Virus record (IMG/VR): IMGVR_UViG_3300028393_000250
Span: 1-30,477 of that record
Source: a virus
Strand: one strand, 5' to 3'
DNA length: 30,477 nt
In this document: in pieces, positions 12,681-28,268 of the stretch
Position numbering within the stretch: position 1 is the stretch's first letter
Layout of the letters: each line of letters starts with the position of its first letter
Position numbers and translations under genes: made by a program
Notes under the pieces: model-generated
The model's database searches: none
Told to the model about the DNA's origin: nothing
The model's input: only the letters and a program-made list of their open reading frames with translations

Positions 12681-12707
12681 AACTTTCCCAAAGTTAAAGT
12701 CGTAAAT

Positions 12708-12737
12708 ATCATAACTCATGAATTACTAGCATGTCAA
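12708..12737 (-). promoter_or_regulatory. sigma70-type promoter of the 12.7-5.8 kb operon
   Basis: On the minus strand a perfect -35 TTGACA (12737-12732), an 18-base spacer and -10 TATGAT (12713-12708). Start of transcription is expected near 12700, giving a leader of about 20 bases to ATG 12680. The -35 lies inside the inverted repeat GTCAAC/GTTGAC (12733-12738 and 12771-12776), which could be an operator or part of a terminator-like fold. Confidence 0.75.
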
Positions 12738-13075
12738 CTGTTGTATCACCACAGCTAAGCCCTCTTACCCGTTGACCCTCCCTCCCCCGGCTGTTGGGTG
12801 TTGGATTGCCAGCGACTCTTTATCAAGGTGCTTTGACCGGTTTTTACGCGATCTATCGGCCAGCCAAGCCGCCCTCCCCTGGAATCCCGATAAAGCCAGT
12901 TCTCACCGGCTTGTCGATCATCTCCCAGCGGTCTAGGGTATGTGTCTTTACGACAACCTTGTTTATTCCTTTTGGCTTACGCTACTTCGGAGGTGCGGGT
13001 CACACCGAGTTTTTTGTCTTTACTTCCACGCTGGCGATACAACCACTTGCTAACGGATGGAGTCCGGTGGCCGCC
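12738..13075 (-). other. non-coding or unresolved stretch with several hairpins
   Basis: I see no convincing protein gene here. On the minus strand two adjacent hairpins stand out: AAGCCGGT-GAGA-ACTGGCTT (12893-12912), a perfect 8-bp stem with a GNRA tetraloop, and TATCGG/CCGATA (12854-12892) extended by CCAG/CTGG with a 4-base bulge. A third pair, GTCAAC/GTTGAC, encloses 12733-12776. Open frames exist on both strands (for example 12794-13186 on plus), none with a proper start. Either a structured RNA or decayed or overlapping coding sequence. Confidence 0.5.
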
Positions 13076-13181
13076 GAAAACGAAAAAAGCCGTTACTACT
13101 GCACTGGGTCGAACCCTCCAAGAATCCCCGGAGGCCAATGCATGAGTAACGGCTCTAAATCTATTGCGTTCGACAGCAACG
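13076..13181 (-). ncRNA. candidate small structured RNA with own promoter and terminator
   Basis: A promoter at 13188-13216 would start an RNA near 13181. About 27 bases later AGCCGUUACU pairs perfectly with AGUAACGGCU (13154-13145 with 13097-13088). Inside, UGCAUUGG pairs with CCAGUGCA (8 bp, one G-U), and CCUCC with GGAGG. The RNA ends in UUUUUU-CG-UUUU. The result is an about 105-base unit: promoter, long interrupted hairpin, U-tract. On the plus strand the same hairpin holds GGAGG eight bases before an ATG (13142), which opens only 14 codons. Function unknown; antisense regulator or decoy are options. Confidence 0.5.
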
Positions 13182-13187
13182 ATTAAC

Positions 13188-13216
13188 ACTATACAGCACT
13201 TTTTGCTTTTCGGCAA
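13188..13216 (-). promoter_or_regulatory. sigma70-type promoter for the candidate small RNA
   Basis: On the minus strand TTGCCG (13216-13211), a 17-base spacer and TATAGT (13193-13188), matching consensus at 4 of 6 and 5 of 6 positions. It lies between the terminator at 13262-13289 and the hairpin RNA, a place where a new transcript must begin. Confidence 0.55.
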
Positions 13217-13244
13217 TAAGTACTAAAAATATTTTCTCCAACTC

Positions 13245-13262
13245 TAACATCTGTTAATGTTA
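13245..13262. promoter_or_regulatory. inverted repeat, possible operator
   Basis: TAACAT and ATGTTA flank six bases just upstream of the promoter at 13188-13216 and just after the terminator. It could be a repressor site; nothing else supports it. Confidence 0.3.
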
Positions 13263-13289
13263 AAAGAACCCCCCAGTTTCCTAGGGGGT
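13262..13289 (-). terminator. rho-independent terminator after the PD-(D/E)XK-like gene
   Basis: On the minus strand ACCCCCTAG-GAAA-CTGGGGGGT forms a 9-bp stem (one G-T pair) with a GNRA tetraloop, followed by TCTTTTAA. It lies 30 bases past the stop of the gene at 13320-13634. Confidence 0.85.
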
Positions 13290-13319
13290 AAGGGTCCGAG
13301 GACCAAGGAGAAAGCAGCT

Positions 13320-13634
13320 TTATTCTACATGAATAATTTTTACTTCCCAGCGGTTGTTCTTTTTTTGCCATCCGTGGACCTCTATCTTGATGCCTGACTC
13401 TCTCACTATGTCCAGGTTCTCATGCTCTAGGATCTTCTTTAGCCGGTCTGATGTGTGGCCCCAGCTGGTGGTCTGCACGCCGATTACCACCCCCTGGCCC
13501 AGGCACAGGATGTCAATAAAGCCGGCGAAGTCATTCTTGCGCTTGGTAAAGGAGTTGTACCGCTCGACCACCTCGGCATAGAAGCCGTTGTCCCTCATGT
13601 ACTTGAGGCTGCGCTGCGTAGTTGTTACCGCCAT
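13320..13634 (-). CDS. PD-(D/E)XK-like phage nuclease-fold protein with altered active site
   Basis: A 104-aa protein from ATG 13634 (MAVTTTQRSLKYMRD). The pattern VVERYN..(6)..DFAGFIDILCL..GVVIGVQTTS, then an Arg/Lys helix and VHGWQKKNNRWEVK, matches a phage family with a restriction-endonuclease-like fold. Asp41 (in FIDIL) is in place, but the usual Glu-x-Lys is Gln54-Thr-Thr56, as in other members with 'QxT'. Whether it cuts DNA is therefore unclear; a Holliday-junction or restriction-like role is an inference. It is a single-gene unit ending at the strong terminator at 13262-13289 and is divergent from the plus-strand cassette. Confidence 0.75.
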   Translation of the reverse strand: MAVTTTQRSLKYMRDNGFYAEVVERYNSFTKRKNDFAGFIDILCLGQGVVIGVQTTSWGHTSDRLKKILEHENLDIVRESGIKIEVHGWQKKNNRWEVKIIHVE

Positions 13635-17658: not shown

Positions 17659-17929
17659 ATTGTTAGACGCTGCGCGTGAGCTGCCCTGCCAGCACTGTGG
17701 TACGCAAGATGGTACGGTAGTGGCGGCTCACAGCAACCAACTAAGGGACGGCAAAGGGCGCGGCCTTAAAGCACAAGACTATAGGATTGCATCACTCTGT
17801 TACAAGTGCCACGCTGACCTGGACCAGGGAACGCATATGAGCAAGGCCGAAAGAATTGAGATGTTTGAGGAGGCACACCGCAAGACTATCGGCCTTATGT
17901 TTGAGCGTGAGATTATTGGGCTGCTCTAA
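17642..17929 (+). CDS. YbcO-like (DUF1364) HNH-type nuclease
   Basis: A 95-aa protein from ATG 17642. Cys16-x2-Cys19, VVAAHSNQ (His30), GKG, KAQDYRIASLC and Cys53-x2-Cys56-His57 followed by LDQGTH reproduce the DUF1364/YbcO layout: a zinc-bound HNH-like fold of lambdoid prophages. The family is a putative structure-specific nuclease near phage recombination genes, replacing or complementing Holliday-junction resolvases. The last gene of the plus cassette, it overlaps the stop of the convergent giant gene by 17 bases. No clear terminator is visible between them. Confidence 0.85.
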   Translation: MYRNRKLLDAARELPCQHCGTQDGTVVAAHSNQLRDGKGRGLKAQDYRIASLCYKCHADLDQGTHMSKAERIEMFEEAHRKTIGLMFEREIIGLL

Positions 17930-20900
17930 CTTTATCGTTAAAGTCCCTCATGGCCTTTACTCTCATCTCTTCAATGCGCTGAGCATTCTTTTTATCATTT
18001 TTCTCAAGGTAAATTTTCTTTTCCTTGTTGAGCTTAGCGATTCTGTTTTCTACGTTATTGGCCTGTTGCCATAACTTAGATTCAGGATTTGCTTTTTTGT
18101 ACTCCTCAACTGGCTCTCTGTTTTGTATGCGCTTTTTGATTTCATGCTCATACTCCGCCATCTGAGATACGTTGTCGTAAAACTTAGCCGAGATAGCGGC
18201 CGGTGTTTTAGTTTCCCCATACAGCTTTCCAACCACTGGAATCTTGTATGCGGGGACCTCTTCACCTTCAGCTGCGGCCTTTATAGAACCAACGCCCTTA
18301 ATTATTTCTCTACTAAAGCCGCCAAAGTACTGACCAGCCAAGTAATCGATCTCGTCAGCTGTCGGGCTAATTAGTCCTTTGGTATGTTTGGTGCCTACTG
18401 GTGAAGTTATGAAATTCAAGAACTCGGCTATGCCCTGGCTTATGAATGTAGCCGTAGGACGCGAACGCTCATATCCAGGCGTTGGCTGGGTTGACATATC
18501 CTTTTTATAGATTGGCCGACCAAATGCATCTTTGTTAGCTGCGACTGCAAACAACGGATCGAACGCAGTAGGGGCAAGCATCTGAGTAAAGCTTCCGGCA
18601 CCAAGCGGATTGAACGCATCAAGTATTAGTGACCCAATGCTTAACGCTTTATCACCAAGACCTTGGTTGCTTTTGAGTAATCCGCCTTTGATTAACACTG
18701 CTTCAGTAATGATGCGGCCAATTCCTGGGAACACATTAAGTCCAGGCGGCATTGGCAAGATGATGTAGTTGTTTCCTGCAAATGGAATAGGGATGATGAA
18801 GTTTTTATCTTTCAAAAACTCTGGAGGATCCCCATCATCGTATCCATTTAGCGCCAGTGCTATTGCCTGAATAACACCCAGGGTAATGCCACCAGCAATA
18901 ATTTTCTTGCCCATAGGACCGTTTAAGGTCTTTGCTAAGCGCGCAGTTCCTTGAACAGATGCATTTACAAAAGCATACAAAGCCTGGAAGGTTGGGGAGG
19001 CCGCGCCCTTGCGGTTAAAGTTAACGGTCAACTCTTTAGCAATAGAGGCTGCTTTTTGCTCGCTTAATCCTTGATCTAATGCCACCTTAAAAGAAGAGAG
19101 ACGCACGGCGTTTTCCATTGCATCGTTGTAGTCTGAGAGCCAATCAAAAAGCTTTTGAGCAGCTTTTTTAACATTGCCTCTGTCAAGGCGTTTCATCTCT
19201 TGCTCAACAATGTTTACTTTTTCTTTTGGCGCACCCGTTCTCATACGTTCAACAAACTTGCCAAAGGACTCACCTTGCCCGCTGAACTGCTGTGCAAACC
19301 CAGTGGTGCCACCCGCCAGCCGCATCTGGTCAAACAAATCCATATAGGCTTGCTCTTTTGGAGATGAAGCTGGCTTATCCCTTAAGCTTTTCCAGATAGC
19401 AAATATTGCGGGCCAGGTGCCTGCTAAAACTGTTTTTTCTTTACCGGCAATTTCTGTTGATGAAAGATTAAAGGCAGCACTTTGTACGTCACGCGCCATG
19501 TTCCATGCGCCAAACACTGGGTTGTATTGCGTATTGATAGATGCAATCCAGCGAGTAACCGCTCCAATATTCCCAAGCACAAAACCAAGCTGGTCCGCGT
19601 CCAGGTTCTTTAAAGACATAGCCATGCGCATGGCGCGCTCATCTTTGGGGTTAAAGATGATGAATCTATCTTCGCCATTGATACGAACAGGAAATACGTT
19701 TTTGCTGTTGTATTGAGCTGGGTTAACGTCATAGCGCACAAGCCCAGTAGTCTTATCAATAGACGGGGTTTGCAGTGGGCGAATAAGGTTTTCAGCGTCC
19801 TGAATAGTCAAGCCAAGGCTAACCATTTCTTGTATAAGCTTGGGTCTATTTTTAACGGCATTAGGGTTAACTGGTAACCAGAATTTTGGATTTGGGCTAG
19901 TGATGGCTAGGGCATACAACGCACGGCCAACCTTGGCTTGTTCAGCCCTGCGAATTGCCTTCTCTCTTTGCATTGCAATGTTTAACAGAATATCCTTAAC
20001 CGGCTTAACAGAGCCCACCGCACGCTTAGATGCCCCGCCTTTTGTGCCTACTCCGCCAACATATCCAGAGCCGGTATGAACAAAGTCCAGATCATCACGC
20101 TGTAGTGGGACGTAATGCTTGTAAGTTTTATTCCATTGGTCAATAGTGTCCTGAGTCTCAAGACCGCCATCAACCAACATCTCTTGAGTCCCCTCAATGA
20201 TGTCATCAATTTTTGATGCAAAGCGCTCTAGCTTGGCCTTCTCTGCTGCTGGTAAGTTAGCCAAATAATCTTGAGCGTCAGTTGTTTTAATTCCTGAGCC
20301 AACATCCTGAACGTCTGGAGATAAATTAATTTTGTTAATCTGTTCGTTACGTTCTTCTGCATGGCGATTGTGAAGATACTTTTCAAGCTCATCTACAGTT
20401 ATTCCCTGCTCCTTCATTTGCTCAAGCAGTGGCCGGAAATCTTCTTCTAGGAAATTCTTAATGCGCTCAGCGGAGCGCCCATGATAAAGAGTCTCTTTTG
20501 TGTAGGCGTCCAGGCGCTCATCAATCTGGCCAACTTTTTCGTTAATTCTTTCAATTACCCGTTTGGTGTCTACTTGTTTATCTGCAACTTGATAGATAAG
20601 ACCATCAGTAAATGATGGCTCAACTGTATCCCAAAGAGCTGTTGGAGCTGCATTGCCTTGATAGTTTTGGATGGACAGGTAATCACCTTCACCCAGCATC
20701 TCTCTCGTAACAAACTTGCCATCAGACTTTGCAAGGCTATCTAATGCACGAATGATTGAGGCGTCAGACTTCAATCCAAACAATGACTTGATCTTCTGGC
20801 CCAGCTCTTTGAGCCAGTTCTTTAGCCTTGCGAGTACCCCGCCTCTTACGGCATCAAAGCGAGACTTAACAATGTCGGAGCCATTTACGGCCCAGAACTC

Positions 20901-23900
20901 AGATGGGTTGAAGTACTCATAAAGCTCGCGTGGCACATCGCCAAGCTTAAGCATTTCACTTGCAAAGGCGTCGCTGTTGGCGCTATTCAAATTCTCCAAC
21001 GTAACTTTAATCCGCTCATAAATTTTTTCCGCACCCTTTGGTACATCTATATTATTTATGCGGTTGTCACCATAGTGAGATTCCATGAGGGCTGCAAAGT
21101 ACAGCTTCTCTGCAGGAGTCTTGGCTTTCTTGGCGGCTTTTGCAAGCTGAGATGACCAAGCCTTGCGGATAGCCTGCTGAACCTTGGTTGGCATCATGCG
21201 CTCAAGATGATGCAAAATCTCATGTACTGTTGTTAAATCAGAACTGCCATTTTTAATAACCGTCATGATGCGCTTATAAGCGTTATATTGACCACCTTGC
21301 CCTGGCTTGCCTTTGCCAATAATAGATACGCCCAGGTCGCTGACAAGGTCTTCGTTGTTCACCATAAACCAAGTGGCTAAGTCACGAGCTTCGCGTGAAA
21401 TTTCTTTGGCATCGACAGCTTGATTCAATCTTGTTTGGATGTGCAGGAACCCACGCTTGCGCTCATTTGGCTCTTCCGCAAGACGTTGCTCTTCATCAGC
21501 AGCAATTGCGGCATCAGCCCGCTCAACAAACTGTTCGTCGGTTATGCGGCCATCTTTACGCATCCGATTGAGAGTCTTAATGGTGCGCTTCAGGGAGTCT
21601 GAGCGTTTCTTTTGCTCACCTTCTGCGTAGCCTTCAATGCTGTAGTAAGTCGGCTCATTCGGCTCTTTAGGCTCCTTGCCTGGGGCCTCCTCTTCGGTTT
21701 TAACCTCAAGCTTATTTGCCTCTGTTTCACGGCCAGTTTGCTTGCGCTCAATCCCAGGCTTAGGAGCTGGAACTTGCTTCTCTGTTACGGTTGTCTTGGT
21801 AACGGGCTCAATCTTCTGGCGGATGATGTCATCACTGTACATAGCTTTACCATTGATAAAGTCCATGACGTTTGCGCCGTTCTCGGGAACGATAAATATC
21901 TTGGCACCATCCATTTGGTTAAGGTGGTTGGTGATTAAGTACTTGAAGGTTTCTTTGTTGACGTTAATACAGCCAAAGGAATAGCGGGAGTCCTCTGCTC
22001 CAGGCTTGTCTAGCGCAGCGAGGCGTTGTTTGGCGTCAGTCTCATTCGTCCATACAGAGTGCATGATTGTGTTTGAGTACGGGCCGTTCTTCCCCATGTG
22101 GGATTTGTCCAGCACAAACACTTTGCCAAAGTCATAGTCACCAGCGGTATACGCCTCACCAGCGCTACGCTTGGCATCACGCAGGCCGAGATCAAACACG
22201 CCGGCCGGAGTAATCCTGTTGGCTACGATCTCATTGTCACCATGCATGTAGTCGCCGATGGCCTTGCCAAACAAAGTCTTGCTTTGGAGCAATAGAGATC
22301 CATCGGGATTGAATAGGTAAGTGTTACCGCTTCGCTTGTCCGCAACAATGAACAGCTTGTCATTAGCCTTGAGCTGGGCCTCCAGGGCTGGGTAGATGAC
22401 GCCATACGCACGCTTAGCGGCATCAGACATCGACTGCGCTTCTTTTGGTAGGTCCTTGATAACCTCACTGGTCTTGATGTCGTACTGAGGCACTGCAATC
22501 GTGTACGGCTTGCTGACAAACTGAGGGTTAAAGACAATCGCCACAGACAGGACGCCGTTGGCAATCTGCTTGATGATCGCCCGGATCTTGCCGTTAACAG
22601 CCTTTGCGCCTTGGGTGATGAAAGCAATGACATCCTTGCGCAGGCTGTCCAAGAACTCAGTAGAGTTATGCTTGGCACCATACTGAGACTCTAGGCTCTT
22701 TGTCTGGTCTTCATTAAGGCTGGAGACTTGGTTGGCTAACAACGCGTGCTGCTTCTCTTCGCCTATTTCTGTGAACTCACCCTCAATCGTGTACGGCTCA
22801 TTAGTAAGCCGAGGGGCGGCAGGCTTCTCTGCTGGGCCCAGCACTTCTACTTCTGGCTCACGAACCATAACTTTGTTAGAGTCTTCCGCAAAGTCAAAGC
22901 CAAACTTTTTATAGAGATCCTCAAGCTGCTGGCGGTCTAGGCCAAAGTTCTTTTCCTTGATGTTGACAATCGGGACCGGCTCAATGTAGAGAGTAACTCC
23001 ATACTGATCAGCGGCCTTGGTCAAGCTATCCAAAGCTTTACTGGCGGCTCCTTTGCCTCGCATATTTGGATCAACCAATAATGCATTTACAGTTAGATCA
23101 CTGGATTCTCCGCGAGCTGTAATAACAGAATTTCGATTTTGAAATAAAACTAGCTGCGGCGTAAACGAAATACGAACACCATCTTTTTCAAAGGTGCGAT
23201 GAGATTCGCCGCCTTTGTCAACGTATGAGCGAGGATCATCCAGCGCCAATACTTTATAGCCGTCATTAAATAGAACAGAGGCCATAGGATAACGTAAAGC
23301 GCCGCCCTCTGGCGTTTCTACTGGCTCAGGTTTAGTTGGCTCTTGTTCTGCTGCATAAGCCTCATCAAACTTTTTCATAGCGGCATCGTAAACCTTGCGG
23401 CCCGCTAAGAATTCATCATCACCAATCTCTTGAGCGCGATAAGCTTCTTGTATTTTATTGAAAGCTTTAATCGCTTTGTTTGACTCATCCATTGCCTTTT
23501 GGTAATCTTCTGATGGAGGCTCTTCTTGTATTTCCTGTTTCCCATTGATGATGTATCTTGCAATGGTTGTGGCCTCGTCTAGATTGCCGTCATAGTAGAA
23601 GTCTTGAAACTCGGAGCCGTCAATTGCCTTTTCATCGGCCTCTGTAGCGCCTTCAAAAGCCTTGGTGTCTACACCATAGTAAGTGCGAGTAAGGCGTTCA
23701 GCCGGAGTCATGCTTTCGGCGTTGTTAGCAATGAAAAATGCGTAGGCAAACCCTTCAGGCGTAAGCGAGCGGGCGTATTTATCCTTGCCGCTTAACTTAA
23801 GTATCTTTGACCCTTCAGTTGGCTCAACAGGAGCCATAGGTAATTCGTTCTCAAAGTTACCCCATAGCAGGGTTTTCTTTGTGTACGGATCTCCATAGAG

Positions 23901-26900
23901 GTTAGGGTCAAACGTCAGATGCGCTGGCGGCAGGTTATTTAACTTGGCAATGCGACCAACAGGATTCTCCAATGCCCAAATTTTTGGCTGTAGAAAATTA
24001 ACTGTACGGATCACTTGCATTACCAGCTCATTGCTGATCTCTGTCTGGCCTTTAGCGTCTTTTTTGGCCCAGAACTGAGCGCCAGAAGAGGCAAAGTCTG
24101 TGCAAGGAGGGGCAGCAAGAATGCCCCATACATCTAAATCGCCATACCCATTTTCAAGTAAGTACTCTGCACTAAAGTCGTTAATGTCTTCGCCCGTTTG
24201 TAGGTCAAAGGTATGGACGTCGTAGCCAGCCTCTTGCCAAGGTTTAGCCCACTCACCAGAGGCATCAAACAAACTAAGAATGGTCTTGTTGTAATTTTTA
24301 TTAGCCTTGCCCTGGCGTGCCGCCTCCGCCTTCCACTCATCTATTTGGGCCTTGGCTTCCTCAGGCGTTAACATTTCAGTTGGCTTTGGCTTAGCTGGTT
24401 TTTCCGTTGAGTGCATTAATGCATTACGGCGAATATCAGAAGGCTCTTCCTCTTCCCGTGTTTCGCTTAAAAGCTTTCCAACAGTTTCGGAATCTGCCTC
24501 AAACGGTACAACCTTAACGCCGTCTTCATTTACCAGCGCTTCTTCGTTCTTTTCCTCTTGGGCAAAGATATCCTTTTGGCCCTGTGCAACTGCAATATCA
24601 GCAGCGCGGTTGCTGCCTGTTAAAGTAAATTCACCAACTTCACGGTCAGCTTTAGCCCTATCCTCAGCCTCTTTATCAGCCTTGGCTTTGGCGGCTTCTT
24701 TTTCCTCTTGCTCAATGCGATACTTTTCTTTAGCTCTTAATCCTTTTGGGGTTGGTTTAGTAAGCGCTTCTCCTTCATCTGGTTCAGTAGATGGAATCTC
24801 GCTTTCGGGCTCAACGCTGCGAGCATTGATTTCACCCTCTCTTTGTTCGTCTGCTGCTTCTTGAAGTTCAAGGTTCTGCTCCTCAATAGTTAGGTAGTCA
24901 TTAATTAATTTTTCAGCCTCTTCAACAGATCCAAAGATTTGCTCAATCTCTACTTGAGAGCTGTAGGGAATGTAGTTCTGCCCACGCACCTGATCTTTGA
25001 TGTACTCTTCCGCTTCTTGGCCGTCAAAGCCAGGGACGTTAGAGCGCATTTGGAACGGTAGGAACTCATCCAAATCGCCGTCTGAAACCATGTCAGCAAT
25101 TGACTTGCCGCTGGATCCTTTTTTGGCTTGAAGTTTCTTTTGGTATATCTGAGGGCTCTTGCCAAACAGTTCAGCTATATCACTAGAGCCAAGCTTCCCA
25201 GTTAGAGAGGTCCATAGGCTTAGTCCAGGCTTGCCTTTGATCTTGCTAACAGCCTTCTCACCCTCTGTAACCCTTTGCTCCGCCTCAGTAACTTCCTGGG
25301 GCCGTGGAACAGCTTTACGGATTACTTGCTGAGCGTTATTGGCAGAAGTGTTTGCGCGCTTGATAGCGGCATTAAACTTGTTTTGATCAGCATTATTGAA
25401 TTCTTGTTGCAGGGCATAGTGACCAGCCAAAAGATTCGATCTATCAGCAATTAAAACGTTGTATTGATTTTTTAATTTACCGGCCTCTGAATCTAATTTT
25501 ATTTTTGGATCTGTAACTTCATAACCAAGATTATTAACTGCCGATACAACACTTCCAAGTGTTTTTTCTATATTATCAAAAGCAGACTTTGCTTCAGGTG
25601 ATGCCGTCTTCTGAAATGTGTCGTAATAATCTTGCTCTGTTGTTAATTTTTTAGCAGGTGTTGCGGGTGTTTTTTTGCCAATAACAATGTACTCTGGTCC
25701 ATTGGTAGTGTTAAACGTAATACCATCGTGACCAGCTTCACGCGCCGCATTGACCAAATCTGCCATAGTATCAGACCGGGTAAGACCCAACTTAGCTTTG
25801 GCATCAACCCATGTTGGAGCTTGTAATAAGTTATCAAACGCATGAACTTTTTCTGATACCACGCCATTTGGACCAGCATACATTTCAGCTACCTTGCGGT
25901 CTGGCGACATGAATTGTGCACCACCAACAGTGGGGCGTTGTTCTTGTCCCTGTGGAACTCCACGGTACAGTGTTATAGGGGCTGCGGGCGCTTGTTTGCG
26001 CTTTTCAATTTCAGCTTTAACAAGGTTATGCTCAGAATCACGCAACTTAATGTTGTTTACTTCAGTCTCAAGTTGCTCATCAGTCATTGCTGCAACTTGA
26101 TTAGGAGTTAGTGCTTTCTGTTCTATAGGGGCTGTGGGCGCTTGTTGTTCTTGCGCTTGCGTGATTGGCGCAATATTTTCCCGCAATGCTTTAATGGTTC
26201 CAACAGGGTCAATTCTTAACCCTGCATTAATTCCCATTATTGCGCTGGTTCCTAGCCTTATGCCAATTTCAGATTGAGCAAATCGTTCAGGCGTCATCCT
26301 TCCCCTTTTGGCGTTTTCCTCCAAAGCCTCTAATTCAAAATCAGCATCTTCAAAAGAAAGTGGTTTTATGCCATCGTAATAAGGGTTTTGTAACAGGCTA
26401 TATCTAAAGTCTGGTGGCACTTTAAATTCTGCGGGCGCTTGTTGTTTTTGCGCTTCTGCTTGCTTGGCTTTAGGGGTTTCAATGCCACTTAAGGCTCCTT
26501 CAATAGAGAGAGGGGTTGGGGTGGTTGGAGTTGGTTCCTCCATTTGCTTGCGAACAAACGGCCCAGCCTCAGCAACTGTTGGCTGAATCTCGGTGGGCTT
26601 AGGAGCTTCAACATTAACAGGTGGTAATGTTGTGGCAGGAGGTTGTCCTAGCGCCTCACGCAGCATTGCCTCTGTATCCATAGACTCAGAGGGAGCAGCG
26701 GTTAGTTTTTCTGGAGATATGGCTACAGGCGAAATAGGGGGTGCAAGCGGAGTGCTTTCGGTAGGAGCTTGGATGCCTGGGCGAGCTGTAGGGGGAGTAA
26801 CTTCTAGGCCAGGGATATTAGCCCTGACATTTGTACCTTTTTCCATGCCGGAATTTGGCATCAAAGACTGACGAACCAATTGATCCAATGCAGTCTGATT

Positions 26901-28268
26901 TACAGTAGCGCCTTTTGCGCCCTCTTCTAGCGCCTGTGCAAGGATATCGGCACGAGTTTGTTCGCCAGTCCTGGCTCCATGAACCCTTGCTCCAGTAGTT
27001 ACGCCTCCTCCAATAACTCCACCAAGCATACCTGCTGCAGCATTATTTAAAATATCTTTAATGTTTTCTTCTGTAAAAAATTCATCTTTTTCTTTTTCTC
27101 GAACTTGACCGGCTATTTGAACACCTTGCTGCGCTCCCTCTTGTAAAGCTTCCTCAAGCGATCCTTTGGGGATTTCTTTAAGCCCCTCTTTAAACGCCTT
27201 CTTTTTAGTTTCTCCAATAACTACCTCTTTAACGCCACGCTTAGCCAATGTTGCAATTGGGCCAAGGGCGGTATCTAATGCGCCATTAATAATGCCAACA
27301 GCTAATGTTGTATCTCCAGTTTTCTTTATATAGTCTGTAATTGCATCTATTTTTTGATTATCTGGAAGGTCTTTAATTTTTTCTTGAATAAATTGCAAGC
27401 GGTCGCCAAGAGCCTGGGCAGCACCCATTGGCGCGCTAACCGCAAAAAGACCAGCAGGACCAGTAGCAGCTCCAGCCAATATTAATGGCGCCATTTGAAC
27501 GGGTAAATTTCCTGCGTTATAAGCAAGCCAATTGGTAAAATCTTTGACGTTCTCAATATCCGTCATGTTGGCCGTGCGGCCGGTATACTTAACTGCATCT
27601 TTTTGGTATTGATCCAATGTATTGATAGAGGCAGCAACAAAATCTTTACGGCGTCCAATTTCACCTATTGTTCGCTCGCGAATTTTTTCTCGCATTGCAG
27701 GGTCAGCGCCAAAATATGCACGAGCTTGCGAGGTAGAGATATCCAAGCCGCGCAATTGATCAGGGCTAGTGATTTCACCAGTCTCAATCTTGTCAAAAAG
27801 ATCAAGCCTTTTCTGAACAGTTCCAAGTGCACCAACATCTTTAAGTACGCTAGTTTGTTCCCACATCGATGGCAACGCAATTGTTGCAGCGCTGACTGCA
27901 CCTTTAACAAACTCTTCCATTGGGCGAGCTTCTGAAGGCGGGCGGGGCTCTTTAGGAGGTTGAGCTATTGTTGGTTCAGTGCTGGGAGCACCAATAGCGC
28001 TCATTACCTGCTCTTCAGGAGATAGTGTGAGCTCAGCCGGAGGTTTTGCTGGTGTCTTTAGTAGGCTTCTTATGCCTGCGCTTGATGGGGTGGCCGCAGC
28101 ATAAGCCTGCTCTTGAGGAGACAGGGCTGGATTACCGGCAAAGTCAGGCACCTTCGGAGTAGGAGCTGGCGGCTGCTTCTCGAGGTAGCCTAGGATCTTA
28201 GCTTTAGCCTCAGCGGGATCTTCAGTGGTAATGTCGTACTGCTGACCCTTGTACTCATAAATAGGCAT
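17913..28268 (-). CDS. giant polyvalent virion-type protein (ART, C5-MTase, GNAT, YkuD, zincin, LPD38)
   Basis: 3451 aa in one uninterrupted frame. Regions in order: YEYKGQQYDITTEDP N-terminus; hydrophobic Ala/Gly segment about 240-285; Pro/Gln-rich linkers about 450-760; ADP-ribosyltransferase-like fold about 765-870 (YRG at 768-770, AGHDGITF); helical region about 1010-1125; C5 DNA-methyltransferase-like domain about 1320-1500 (LSLFDASG, APPCTDF with Cys1389, ALENPVG); GNAT about 1655-1800 (RGKG at 1737-1740); YkuD L,D-transpeptidase about 1960-2150 (TPAGVF, MHSVW, SFGCIN with Cys2100); zincin (HEILH, His2349, Glu2350, His2353); LPD38-like C-terminus from about 2900 with a hydrophobic segment near 3120. 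This is the 'polyvalent protein' style, thought to be packaged and injected with the DNA. Start: ATG with TTAAGG seven bases upstream; it lies eight bases after the 553-aa gene. Confidence 0.9.
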   Translation of the reverse strand: MPIYEYKGQQYDITTEDPAEAKAKILGYLEKQPPAPTPKVPDFAGNPALSPQEQAYAAATPSSAGIRSLLKTPAKPPAELTLSPEEQVMSAIGAPSTEPTIAQPPKEPRPPSEARPMEEFVKGAVSAATIALPSMWEQTSVLKDVGALGTVQKRLDLFDKIETGEITSPDQLRGLDISTSQARAYFGADPAMREKIRERTIGEIGRRKDFVAASINTLDQYQKDAVKYTGRTANMTDIENVKDFTNWLAYNAGNLPVQMAPLILAGAATGPAGLFAVSAPMGAAQALGDRLQFIQEKIKDLPDNQKIDAITDYIKKTGDTTLAVGIINGALDTALGPIATLAKRGVKEVVIGETKKKAFKEGLKEIPKGSLEEALQEGAQQGVQIAGQVREKEKDEFFTEENIKDILNNAAAGMLGGVIGGGVTTGARVHGARTGEQTRADILAQALEEGAKGATVNQTALDQLVRQSLMPNSGMEKGTNVRANIPGLEVTPPTARPGIQAPTESTPLAPPISPVAISPEKLTAAPSESMDTEAMLREALGQPPATTLPPVNVEAPKPTEIQPTVAEAGPFVRKQMEEPTPTTPTPLSIEGALSGIETPKAKQAEAQKQQAPAEFKVPPDFRYSLLQNPYYDGIKPLSFEDADFELEALEENAKRGRMTPERFAQSEIGIRLGTSAIMGINAGLRIDPVGTIKALRENIAPITQAQEQQAPTAPIEQKALTPNQVAAMTDEQLETEVNNIKLRDSEHNLVKAEIEKRKQAPAAPITLYRGVPQGQEQRPTVGGAQFMSPDRKVAEMYAGPNGVVSEKVHAFDNLLQAPTWVDAKAKLGLTRSDTMADLVNAAREAGHDGITFNTTNGPEYIVIGKKTPATPAKKLTTEQDYYDTFQKTASPEAKSAFDNIEKTLGSVVSAVNNLGYEVTDPKIKLDSEAGKLKNQYNVLIADRSNLLAGHYALQQEFNNADQNKFNAAIKRANTSANNAQQVIRKAVPRPQEVTEAEQRVTEGEKAVSKIKGKPGLSLWTSLTGKLGSSDIAELFGKSPQIYQKKLQAKKGSSGKSIADMVSDGDLDEFLPFQMRSNVPGFDGQEAEEYIKDQVRGQNYIPYSSQVEIEQIFGSVEEAEKLINDYLTIEEQNLELQEAADEQREGEINARSVEPESEIPSTEPDEGEALTKPTPKGLRAKEKYRIEQEEKEAAKAKADKEAEDRAKADREVGEFTLTGSNRAADIAVAQGQKDIFAQEEKNEEALVNEDGVKVVPFEADSETVGKLLSETREEEEPSDIRRNALMHSTEKPAKPKPTEMLTPEEAKAQIDEWKAEAARQGKANKNYNKTILSLFDASGEWAKPWQEAGYDVHTFDLQTGEDINDFSAEYLLENGYGDLDVWGILAAPPCTDFASSGAQFWAKKDAKGQTEISNELVMQVIRTVNFLQPKIWALENPVGRIAKLNNLPPAHLTFDPNLYGDPYTKKTLLWGNFENELPMAPVEPTEGSKILKLSGKDKYARSLTPEGFAYAFFIANNAESMTPAERLTRTYYGVDTKAFEGATEADEKAIDGSEFQDFYYDGNLDEATTIARYIINGKQEIQEEPPSEDYQKAMDESNKAIKAFNKIQEAYRAQEIGDDEFLAGRKVYDAAMKKFDEAYAAEQEPTKPEPVETPEGGALRYPMASVLFNDGYKVLALDDPRSYVDKGGESHRTFEKDGVRISFTPQLVLFQNRNSVITARGESSDLTVNALLVDPNMRGKGAASKALDSLTKAADQYGVTLYIEPVPIVNIKEKNFGLDRQQLEDLYKKFGFDFAEDSNKVMVREPEVEVLGPAEKPAAPRLTNEPYTIEGEFTEIGEEKQHALLANQVSSLNEDQTKSLESQYGAKHNSTEFLDSLRKDVIAFITQGAKAVNGKIRAIIKQIANGVLSVAIVFNPQFVSKPYTIAVPQYDIKTSEVIKDLPKEAQSMSDAAKRAYGVIYPALEAQLKANDKLFIVADKRSGNTYLFNPDGSLLLQSKTLFGKAIGDYMHGDNEIVANRITPAGVFDLGLRDAKRSAGEAYTAGDYDFGKVFVLDKSHMGKNGPYSNTIMHSVWTNETDAKQRLAALDKPGAEDSRYSFGCINVNKETFKYLITNHLNQMDGAKIFIVPENGANVMDFINGKAMYSDDIIRQKIEPVTKTTVTEKQVPAPKPGIERKQTGRETEANKLEVKTEEEAPGKEPKEPNEPTYYSIEGYAEGEQKKRSDSLKRTIKTLNRMRKDGRITDEQFVERADAAIAADEEQRLAEEPNERKRGFLHIQTRLNQAVDAKEISREARDLATWFMVNNEDLVSDLGVSIIGKGKPGQGGQYNAYKRIMTVIKNGSSDLTTVHEILHHLERMMPTKVQQAIRKAWSSQLAKAAKKAKTPAEKLYFAALMESHYGDNRINNIDVPKGAEKIYERIKVTLENLNSANSDAFASEMLKLGDVPRELYEYFNPSEFWAVNGSDIVKSRFDAVRGGVLARLKNWLKELGQKIKSLFGLKSDASIIRALDSLAKSDGKFVTREMLGEGDYLSIQNYQGNAAPTALWDTVEPSFTDGLIYQVADKQVDTKRVIERINEKVGQIDERLDAYTKETLYHGRSAERIKNFLEEDFRPLLEQMKEQGITVDELEKYLHNRHAEERNEQINKINLSPDVQDVGSGIKTTDAQDYLANLPAAEKAKLERFASKIDDIIEGTQEMLVDGGLETQDTIDQWNKTYKHYVPLQRDDLDFVHTGSGYVGGVGTKGGASKRAVGSVKPVKDILLNIAMQREKAIRRAEQAKVGRALYALAITSPNPKFWLPVNPNAVKNRPKLIQEMVSLGLTIQDAENLIRPLQTPSIDKTTGLVRYDVNPAQYNSKNVFPVRINGEDRFIIFNPKDERAMRMAMSLKNLDADQLGFVLGNIGAVTRWIASINTQYNPVFGAWNMARDVQSAAFNLSSTEIAGKEKTVLAGTWPAIFAIWKSLRDKPASSPKEQAYMDLFDQMRLAGGTTGFAQQFSGQGESFGKFVERMRTGAPKEKVNIVEQEMKRLDRGNVKKAAQKLFDWLSDYNDAMENAVRLSSFKVALDQGLSEQKAASIAKELTVNFNRKGAASPTFQALYAFVNASVQGTARLAKTLNGPMGKKIIAGGITLGVIQAIALALNGYDDGDPPEFLKDKNFIIPIPFAGNNYIILPMPPGLNVFPGIGRIITEAVLIKGGLLKSNQGLGDKALSIGSLILDAFNPLGAGSFTQMLAPTAFDPLFAVAANKDAFGRPIYKKDMSTQPTPGYERSRPTATFISQGIAEFLNFITSPVGTKHTKGLISPTADEIDYLAGQYFGGFSREIIKGVGSIKAAAEGEEVPAYKIPVVGKLYGETKTPAAISAKFYDNVSQMAEYEHEIKKRIQNREPVEEYKKANPESKLWQQANNVENRIAKLNKEKKIYLEKNDKKNAQRIEEMRVKAMRDFNDKVRAAQ
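25981..26450. repeat. repeated Gln-Ala-Pro linker units inside the giant gene
   Basis: A GCGGGCGCTTGTT-type block recurs at 25984-25996, 26134-26146 (one base different) and 26431-26443. On the coding strand these encode QAPAAP, QQAPTAP and QQAPAEF, the flexible joints between modules. They may promote module shuffling by recombination. Confidence 0.6.

Follow-up and report, generated by a model that had tools for sequence, protein, structure and literature searches.

Known phage RNAs and the RNA1 locus

Phage-encoded structured RNAs with a known function are few. The packaging RNA (pRNA) of phage phi29 is a phage RNA of ~100 nt whose loops base-pair, whereas the put antiterminator RNA of phage HK022 is short, folds into two hairpins, and is located right at a phage promoter. 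In Pistol and other small ribozymes, the loop of a 5′ hairpin pairs with a downstream strand, forming a hairpin-loop pseudoknot. Anti-CRISPR RNAs that mimic CRISPR repeats were also considered as a candidate kind for the locus described here. GOLLD and ROOL are large, ornate phage RNAs, often encoded near tRNA islands, and are still without a known function (PMC12286853).

The window analyzed here is a complete stretch of 30,477 bp from an IMG/VR virus record carrying genes for a DNA polymerase, helicase, exonuclease, and Erf, as well as a 3451-aa protein. The open frame of the latter (17913–28268, minus strand) includes a DNA methyltransferase-like region at residues 1321–1528 and a C-terminal region common to PHROG giant proteins of unknown function. 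The candidate RNA of this window, denoted RNA1, resembles GOLLD and ROOL in being phage-encoded, structured, of unknown function, and equipped with conserved kissing or pseudoknot contacts (PMC12286853). However, it is ~99 nt rather than 600–800 nt long, has its own terminator, and is matched by neither the GOLLD nor the ROOL model of Rfam; a member of either group would be a large, multi-domain RNA that forms homo-oligomers. RNA1 departs from the phi29 pRNA in that its loop pairs intramolecularly, with a bulge, in that a terminator forms its 3′ end, and in that most loci are away from packaging genes; no phi29-type pRNA model of Rfam matched RNA1. Structurally, an own terminator and a pseudoknot also set it apart from HK022 put. 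Nor does RNA1 agree with Pistol-type ribozymes: it matches no Rfam model, we recognized no conserved cleavage site in it, and it closes with a terminator.

Searches of the window against Rfam 15 (4,227 models) yielded no match at the gathering threshold, and only chance matches at E ≤ 10 in the region 12700–13350; RNA1 of the other members scanned was likewise without an Rfam match. ARAGORN and Rfam detected no tRNA or tmRNA in the window, tRNAs adjoining RNA1 only in a few relatives. These results agree with the initial impression that the RNA is neither a tRNA, nor 6S RNA, nor a known riboswitch. The Betaproteobacteria-1 RNA (RF02932; membership cut-off ≥49.4 bits over 120 positions) occurs in the same phage setting and, in several records, on the same strand, yet it is a different RNA, and its model does not match RNA1. 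Our search of open-license papers found no account of RNA1, an earlier description elsewhere being possible. We classify RNA1 as a new family within a known kind, the structured noncoding RNAs of phages.

Two resemblances were pursued and abandoned. The motif GGUUCGACC resembles a T-arm, but tRNA mimicry was rejected because this motif changes freely together with its pseudoknot partner. The 3′ strand of P2 (see below) agrees over 10 nt with what we take to be helix 68 of 23S rRNA, but this match was dropped because it is short and not preserved in the GUUAC class.

Architecture of the predicted transcription unit

The original prediction placed at 13076–13216 a stand-alone small RNA gene comprising a promoter, an RNA of about 105 bases with a long interrupted hairpin, and a U-tract, but named no strand. 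All parts that it described are present, in that order, on the minus strand, to which all coordinates in this section refer. Read 5′ to 3′, the unit consists of the promoter, a start near 13181, the P1 hairpin, a linker, the long interrupted hairpin, and six U. The promoter scan located a sigma-70-like promoter (13216..13188) composed of a −35 hexamer TTGCCG (13216..13211) and a −10 hexamer TATAGT (13193..13188) separated by a 17-nt spacer. By itself, such a consensus match is about what chance provides (8 found versus 9.8 expected in the scan), and relatives were therefore needed to decide. Conservation and the covariance model support a predicted RNA of ~99 nt, extending from an approximate start at 13181 to the final U, at 13083.

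The P1 hairpin is formed by GUUGC (13180–13176) and GCAAU (13167–13163), which enclose an 8-nt loop (13175–13168). Within this loop lies the 5′ strand of the predicted pseudoknot, GUCGAAC (13174–13168), the partner of which, GUUCGAC (13114–13108), occupies a bulge between P4 and P3. The long hairpin opens with P2, a 10-bp stem between the near-invariant strand AGCCGUUACU (13154–13145) and AGUAACGGCU (13097–13088), the latter forming the base of the terminator hairpin. P2 is followed by a conserved 2 × 2 internal loop, with CA as the 5′ half (13144–13143) and GU as the 3′ half (13099–13098), by the 8-bp stem P3, in which UGCAUUGG (13142–13135) pairs with 13107–13100, and by the P4 hairpin (13134–13115), in which CCUCC (13134–13130) and GGAGG (13119–13115) flank a variable apical loop. 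P2 and P3 are the nested stems of 10 and 8 bp originally noticed, whereas the P1 hairpin (13180–13163), the loop–bulge pseudoknot, and a further RNA directly downstream had been missed. A six-base U-tract (13088–13083) completes the intrinsic terminator. Folded alone, RNA1 reaches −45.8 kcal/mol compared to −26.5 for shuffled sequences (z = −5.9), with 0 of 200 shuffles as low.

Upstream of the promoter, the terminator expected to isolate the unit was found as a terminator-like hairpin at 13289..13268 (9 pairs, 6 of them G-C; tail TCTTTTAACA). Between this hairpin and the promoter, a short stretch (13233–13261) recurs at several distant sites in the related genomes G001, G002, G004, and G007, and is perhaps a dispersed regulatory repeat.

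Relatives and conserved transcription signals

Records related through neighboring proteins, searches with neighboring genes, and pattern searches yielded at least 115 distinct relatives of RNA1 that keep the terminator strand, nearly all of them in IMG/VR viral contigs. Removal of near-duplicates reduced these 115 to 86 non-redundant members. The only selection criteria were conserved words at the 5′ end and the 3′ strand of P2, with at least four T required in the tract, so that the pseudoknot, P3, and P4 represent independent tests. Sequence conservation detected by BLAST in two related records begins at 13181, the predicted first transcribed base, and the covariance model recovers the window copy at 13187..13084 (69.5 bits, E = 3.6e-16). 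RNA1 occurs once per contig in the searched loci, weaker matches on the opposite strand being the same site read in reverse.

Bacterial MAG contigs account for two of the 115 copies (L321 and L337). Other matches in bacterial genomes contained no RNA1, and most pattern matches in genome contigs lacked the terminator and were due to chance; of 401 genomes from a Comamonadaceae MAG’s family, one, the starting genome, contained RNA1. No close DNA relatives were found among named phages with two query sequences; a third query variant identified a copy in MW202484, which is metagenomic though named as a phage record. The hosts of the freshwater phages carrying RNA1 are probably Burkholderiales.

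The transcription signals are conserved among the relatives. A −10-like hexamer is positioned 6–7 nt before P1 in 105 of the 115, with at least five matches to the consensus in 56% (9% in shuffles), and a perfect −35 TTGACA occurs in 30 of 115, at least four of six positions matching in 47% compared to a background of 12%. The modal length of the U-tract is six T (77 of 111 relatives), four or more being required by the search itself. The two features that mark an autonomous sRNA gene, a promoter at a fixed distance and an intrinsic terminator with a GC-containing stem and six U, are thus both present. Judging from the promoter spacing and the U-tract, RNA1 would run from the edge of P1 to the terminator, leaving its ends almost without unstructured bases. 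Conserved start and stop signals hence frame RNA1 as a predicted transcription unit. The description as stand-alone holds with reservations, as a second RNA, RNA2, follows 20–30 nt downstream of the terminator without room for a promoter of its own.

RNA1 lengths are randomly distributed modulo 3 (23/23/19), which indicates that the element is not coding. At most 45 of the 115 members keep any one reading frame through it open, so that the protein-coding reading is out on account of both uniform lengths and broken frames; a protein conserved in one frame, named at the outset as evidence against an RNA gene, was not found. The annotation of MW202484.1 places a “hypothetical protein” across most of RNA1 and the sequence that follows (33533–33892; L371:4037–4396), probably a false gene call.

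Covariation of the pseudoknot and helices

The pseudoknot forms seven Watson–Crick pairs in 85 of the 86 non-redundant members (shuffled mean 7.9, maximum 16), the lone exception using a different P1 register. Besides GUCGAAC/GUUCGAC of the window, the co-varying loop/bulge pairs in the first alignment include GUCGUUC/GAACGAC, GUCGUGU/ACACGAC, GUAGGAA/UUCCUAC, GUUGCAC/GUGCAAC, and GUGGAAA/UUUCCAC, and single column pairs show up to four standard pair types (e.g., AU17/GC13/UA12/CG10). P3 pairs in 84 of 86 members (shuffled mean 18.6, maximum 31) and P4 in 79 of 85 (shuffled 58.5), and the 5-8-5 geometry of P1 is fixed in 69 of 85, most of the remainder deviating only by a GUUGUUG register or by one pair fewer.

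A model-fitted alignment of 65 members, with the pseudoknot left out of the model, had 96.3% of cells paired and 19 pairs with changes on both sides; its covariation score, 0.424, fell to 0.167 on shuffling and to 0.113 or less on sliding. In this alignment, 96.9% of P1 cells and 98.4% of P4 cells are paired, all four P4 pairs having changed on both sides. P2 displays compensatory G-C to A-U replacements in L086, L101, L103, and L134, and several changes in L371; every helix of RNA1 covaries. The CA half of the 2 × 2 loop is unvarying in alignments A1 and A2, the other half being GU or GC, and the pair adjoining this loop flips from U-A to A-U in 24 of 65 members. Read on the minus strand, G-U pairs greatly outnumber A-C pairs (168 versus 9), which implies that the constrained molecule is the minus strand, as RNA.

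A pattern covering the 3′ end alone fetched at least 41 new loci, namely 36 complete members, one incomplete, and four unrelated, and P1 and the pseudoknot are kept in 35 of the 36 complete members. The exception, L386, resembles a chimera of two types.

Covariation, the check proposed with the original prediction, proved overwhelming, and together with the folding energy supports the candidate small RNA gene and its long interrupted hairpin. On this comparative evidence, RNA1 is a real structured RNA gene of phages, uncatalogued before, in which the P1 loop and a bulge in the 3′ arm of the long interrupted hairpin pair as a loop–bulge pseudoknot.

Accompanying RNAs and genomic settings

Immediately past RNA1, the minus strand of the window carries a second, larger structured RNA, RNA2 (~270 nt; 13062..12792, boundaries approximate; profile match 13088–12792), which begins 20–30 nt past the RNA1 terminator. 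RNAalifold analysis of 33 members predicted 61 pairs, 26 of them with compensatory changes, including hairpins with GNRA loops. RNA2 has no Rfam match, and its types do not clearly stand out by simple folding energy, the evidence being covariation; further copies occur in, e.g., L073, L074, L081, L101, L106, and L109. Almost all inspected RNA1 loci have 250–300 nt of noncoding, structured-looking sequence 20–30 nt downstream, and in other phages other RNA types take the place of RNA2. Among these is Betaproteobacteria-1, which is present in 7 of 50 RNA1 records (L214:3599–3482, L200:7009–6892, L189, L208, L180, L233, and L264), mostly just downstream and in several cases 12–20 nt after RNA1 and on its strand. 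Rfam lists it as a separate sRNA. None of the copies inspected in bacterial genomes is preceded by RNA1, indicating that the elements are separable.

A third, repeated element of ~100 nt, RNA3 (GUUGGUGG...ACGGGUUAGCGCCGU...AACACUGCUUNAUGUGAGCCACCAAC), has a closing stem of ~8 bp and is represented by 57 distinct copies in the fetched loci, often beside RNA1 and sometimes twice per locus (e.g., plus-strand copies in L241 at ~4986, L224 at ~5280, L217 at ~6066, L182 at ~5258, and L257). It separates RNA1 from RNA2 in L086, L088, L097, L216, and L268, and Rfam scans of L101 and L097 gave no match to it. Phage tRNA genes (Met, Pro, His, and Asn; L193:896–1062, L198:1689–1763, L201:11338–11412, and L243:2624–3045) lie 39–49 nt upstream of RNA1 and co-directional with it in L193, L198/L121, L201, and L243.

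The protein-coding surroundings vary. RNA1 neighbors a divergent exonuclease gene in 33 loci, a count partly due to searching with that gene, and divergent ssDNA-annealing genes in 16, and lies within recombination clusters in 12; it immediately follows TerL in 17 of the 115 loci, precedes TerS/TerL in 5, and resides elsewhere in 32. In 91 of 94 cases, the next gene is oriented like RNA1, which often heads the replication operon. The unit thus occupies at least five different genomic settings, several of them unrelated, and is mobile between them.

Proposed function and alternative explanations

No single neighbor of RNA1 is constant, for which reason a trans-acting, probably protein-binding role fits best, and we propose with moderate confidence that RNA1 is a mobile, trans-acting RNA gene. 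Under this proposal, host RNA polymerase would transcribe RNA1, at a guess early in infection, and the base of the long hairpin together with the six U would act as the intrinsic terminator ending it. The product would be stable and compact and would accumulate. The pseudoknot tolerates any pairing sequence, and we therefore read it as scaffolding that would only fix the geometry. By contrast, the lower stem and the 2 × 2 CA/GU loop hardly change though pairing would permit it, and may constitute the recognized surface, through which RNA1 would most likely act as a decoy or scaffold by binding a protein of the host or the phage. Alternatively, the lower stem could be invariant because it serves as a DNA-binding site or as an antisense seed. 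The gene would spread as a self-contained, “moron”-like transcription unit, usually with other structured RNAs and sometimes with tRNAs.

The main rival to this trans-acting role, possible but tentative, is a cis-acting 5′ leader that controls read-through of its own terminator into RNA2 and the following genes, like HK022 put or a regulated attenuator. RNA1 starts at +1 and ends in a U6 terminator, after which RNA2 and co-directional genes follow without an intervening promoter; this arrangement and the prevailing co-direction would fit a leader equally well, as would the frequent position at the head of the replication operon. A put-type RNA suppresses termination in cis through RNA polymerase, and the location of RNA1 partly fits this type. 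Yet no conserved alternative antiterminator pairing was found, the pseudoknot and the terminator stem being compatible and conserved together, and a cis task shared by loci directly after TerL, before TerS/TerL, and behind tRNAs is hard to see. It is unlikely, though conceivable, that RNA1 is the unvarying part of a mobile RNA cassette of phages, in which one of several large structured RNAs (window-type RNA2, Betaproteobacteria-1, or another) follows it, at times accompanied by tRNAs and RNA3, and that together these would form an undescribed RNA-based machine, such as a multi-RNA particle or an RNA counter-defense device. The structured-looking sequence behind almost every inspected RNA1 and the covariation of window-type RNA2 in 26 of 61 pairs might also suggest a single RNA of ~400 nt that functions as a unit, with RNA1 and RNA2 as its domains, comparable to the large ornate phage RNAs, but a six-U terminator lies between them, other elements can be inserted there, and the inspected bacterial Betaproteobacteria-1 copies do without an upstream RNA1, all of which renders a single RNA quite unlikely.

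An antisense regulator would draw on the most conserved part of RNA1, the strand GCCGUU(U)ACNCAUGC, for pairing with a host or phage mRNA. We regard this as improbable: the strand is locked in a stem of 10–12 bp in all members, with the compensated changes in L086, L101, L103, L134, and L371, and its only other match in the window is its own hairpin arm, no second, unrelated match being present. A DNA-packaging RNA resembling the phi29 pRNA, with copies joined by loop–loop contacts, could be read from the 7-bp loop pairing and the 17 loci immediately after TerL, but packaging genes are distant from most loci and the Rfam scans found no phi29-type pRNA, making this role very improbable. Finally, the unit does end in a hairpin and a U-tract, so that 13076–13216 might be a mere intrinsic terminator behind a fortuitous upstream promoter, with no functional RNA. 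This is scarcely credible given that P1 and the pseudoknot are unnecessary for termination, yet covary in 85 of 86 members, and that the promoter is conserved at a fixed distance; unless the alignments are wrong, the covariation refutes it.

The RNA1 family, which Rfam lacks and which well over a hundred contigs of environmental phages carry, is at ~99 nt small enough to solve and mutate, and its pseudoknot offers ready-made compensatory mutants, so that both structure and function are directly testable. That other structured RNAs constantly accompany it suggests an unexplored layer of RNA biology in freshwater phages.
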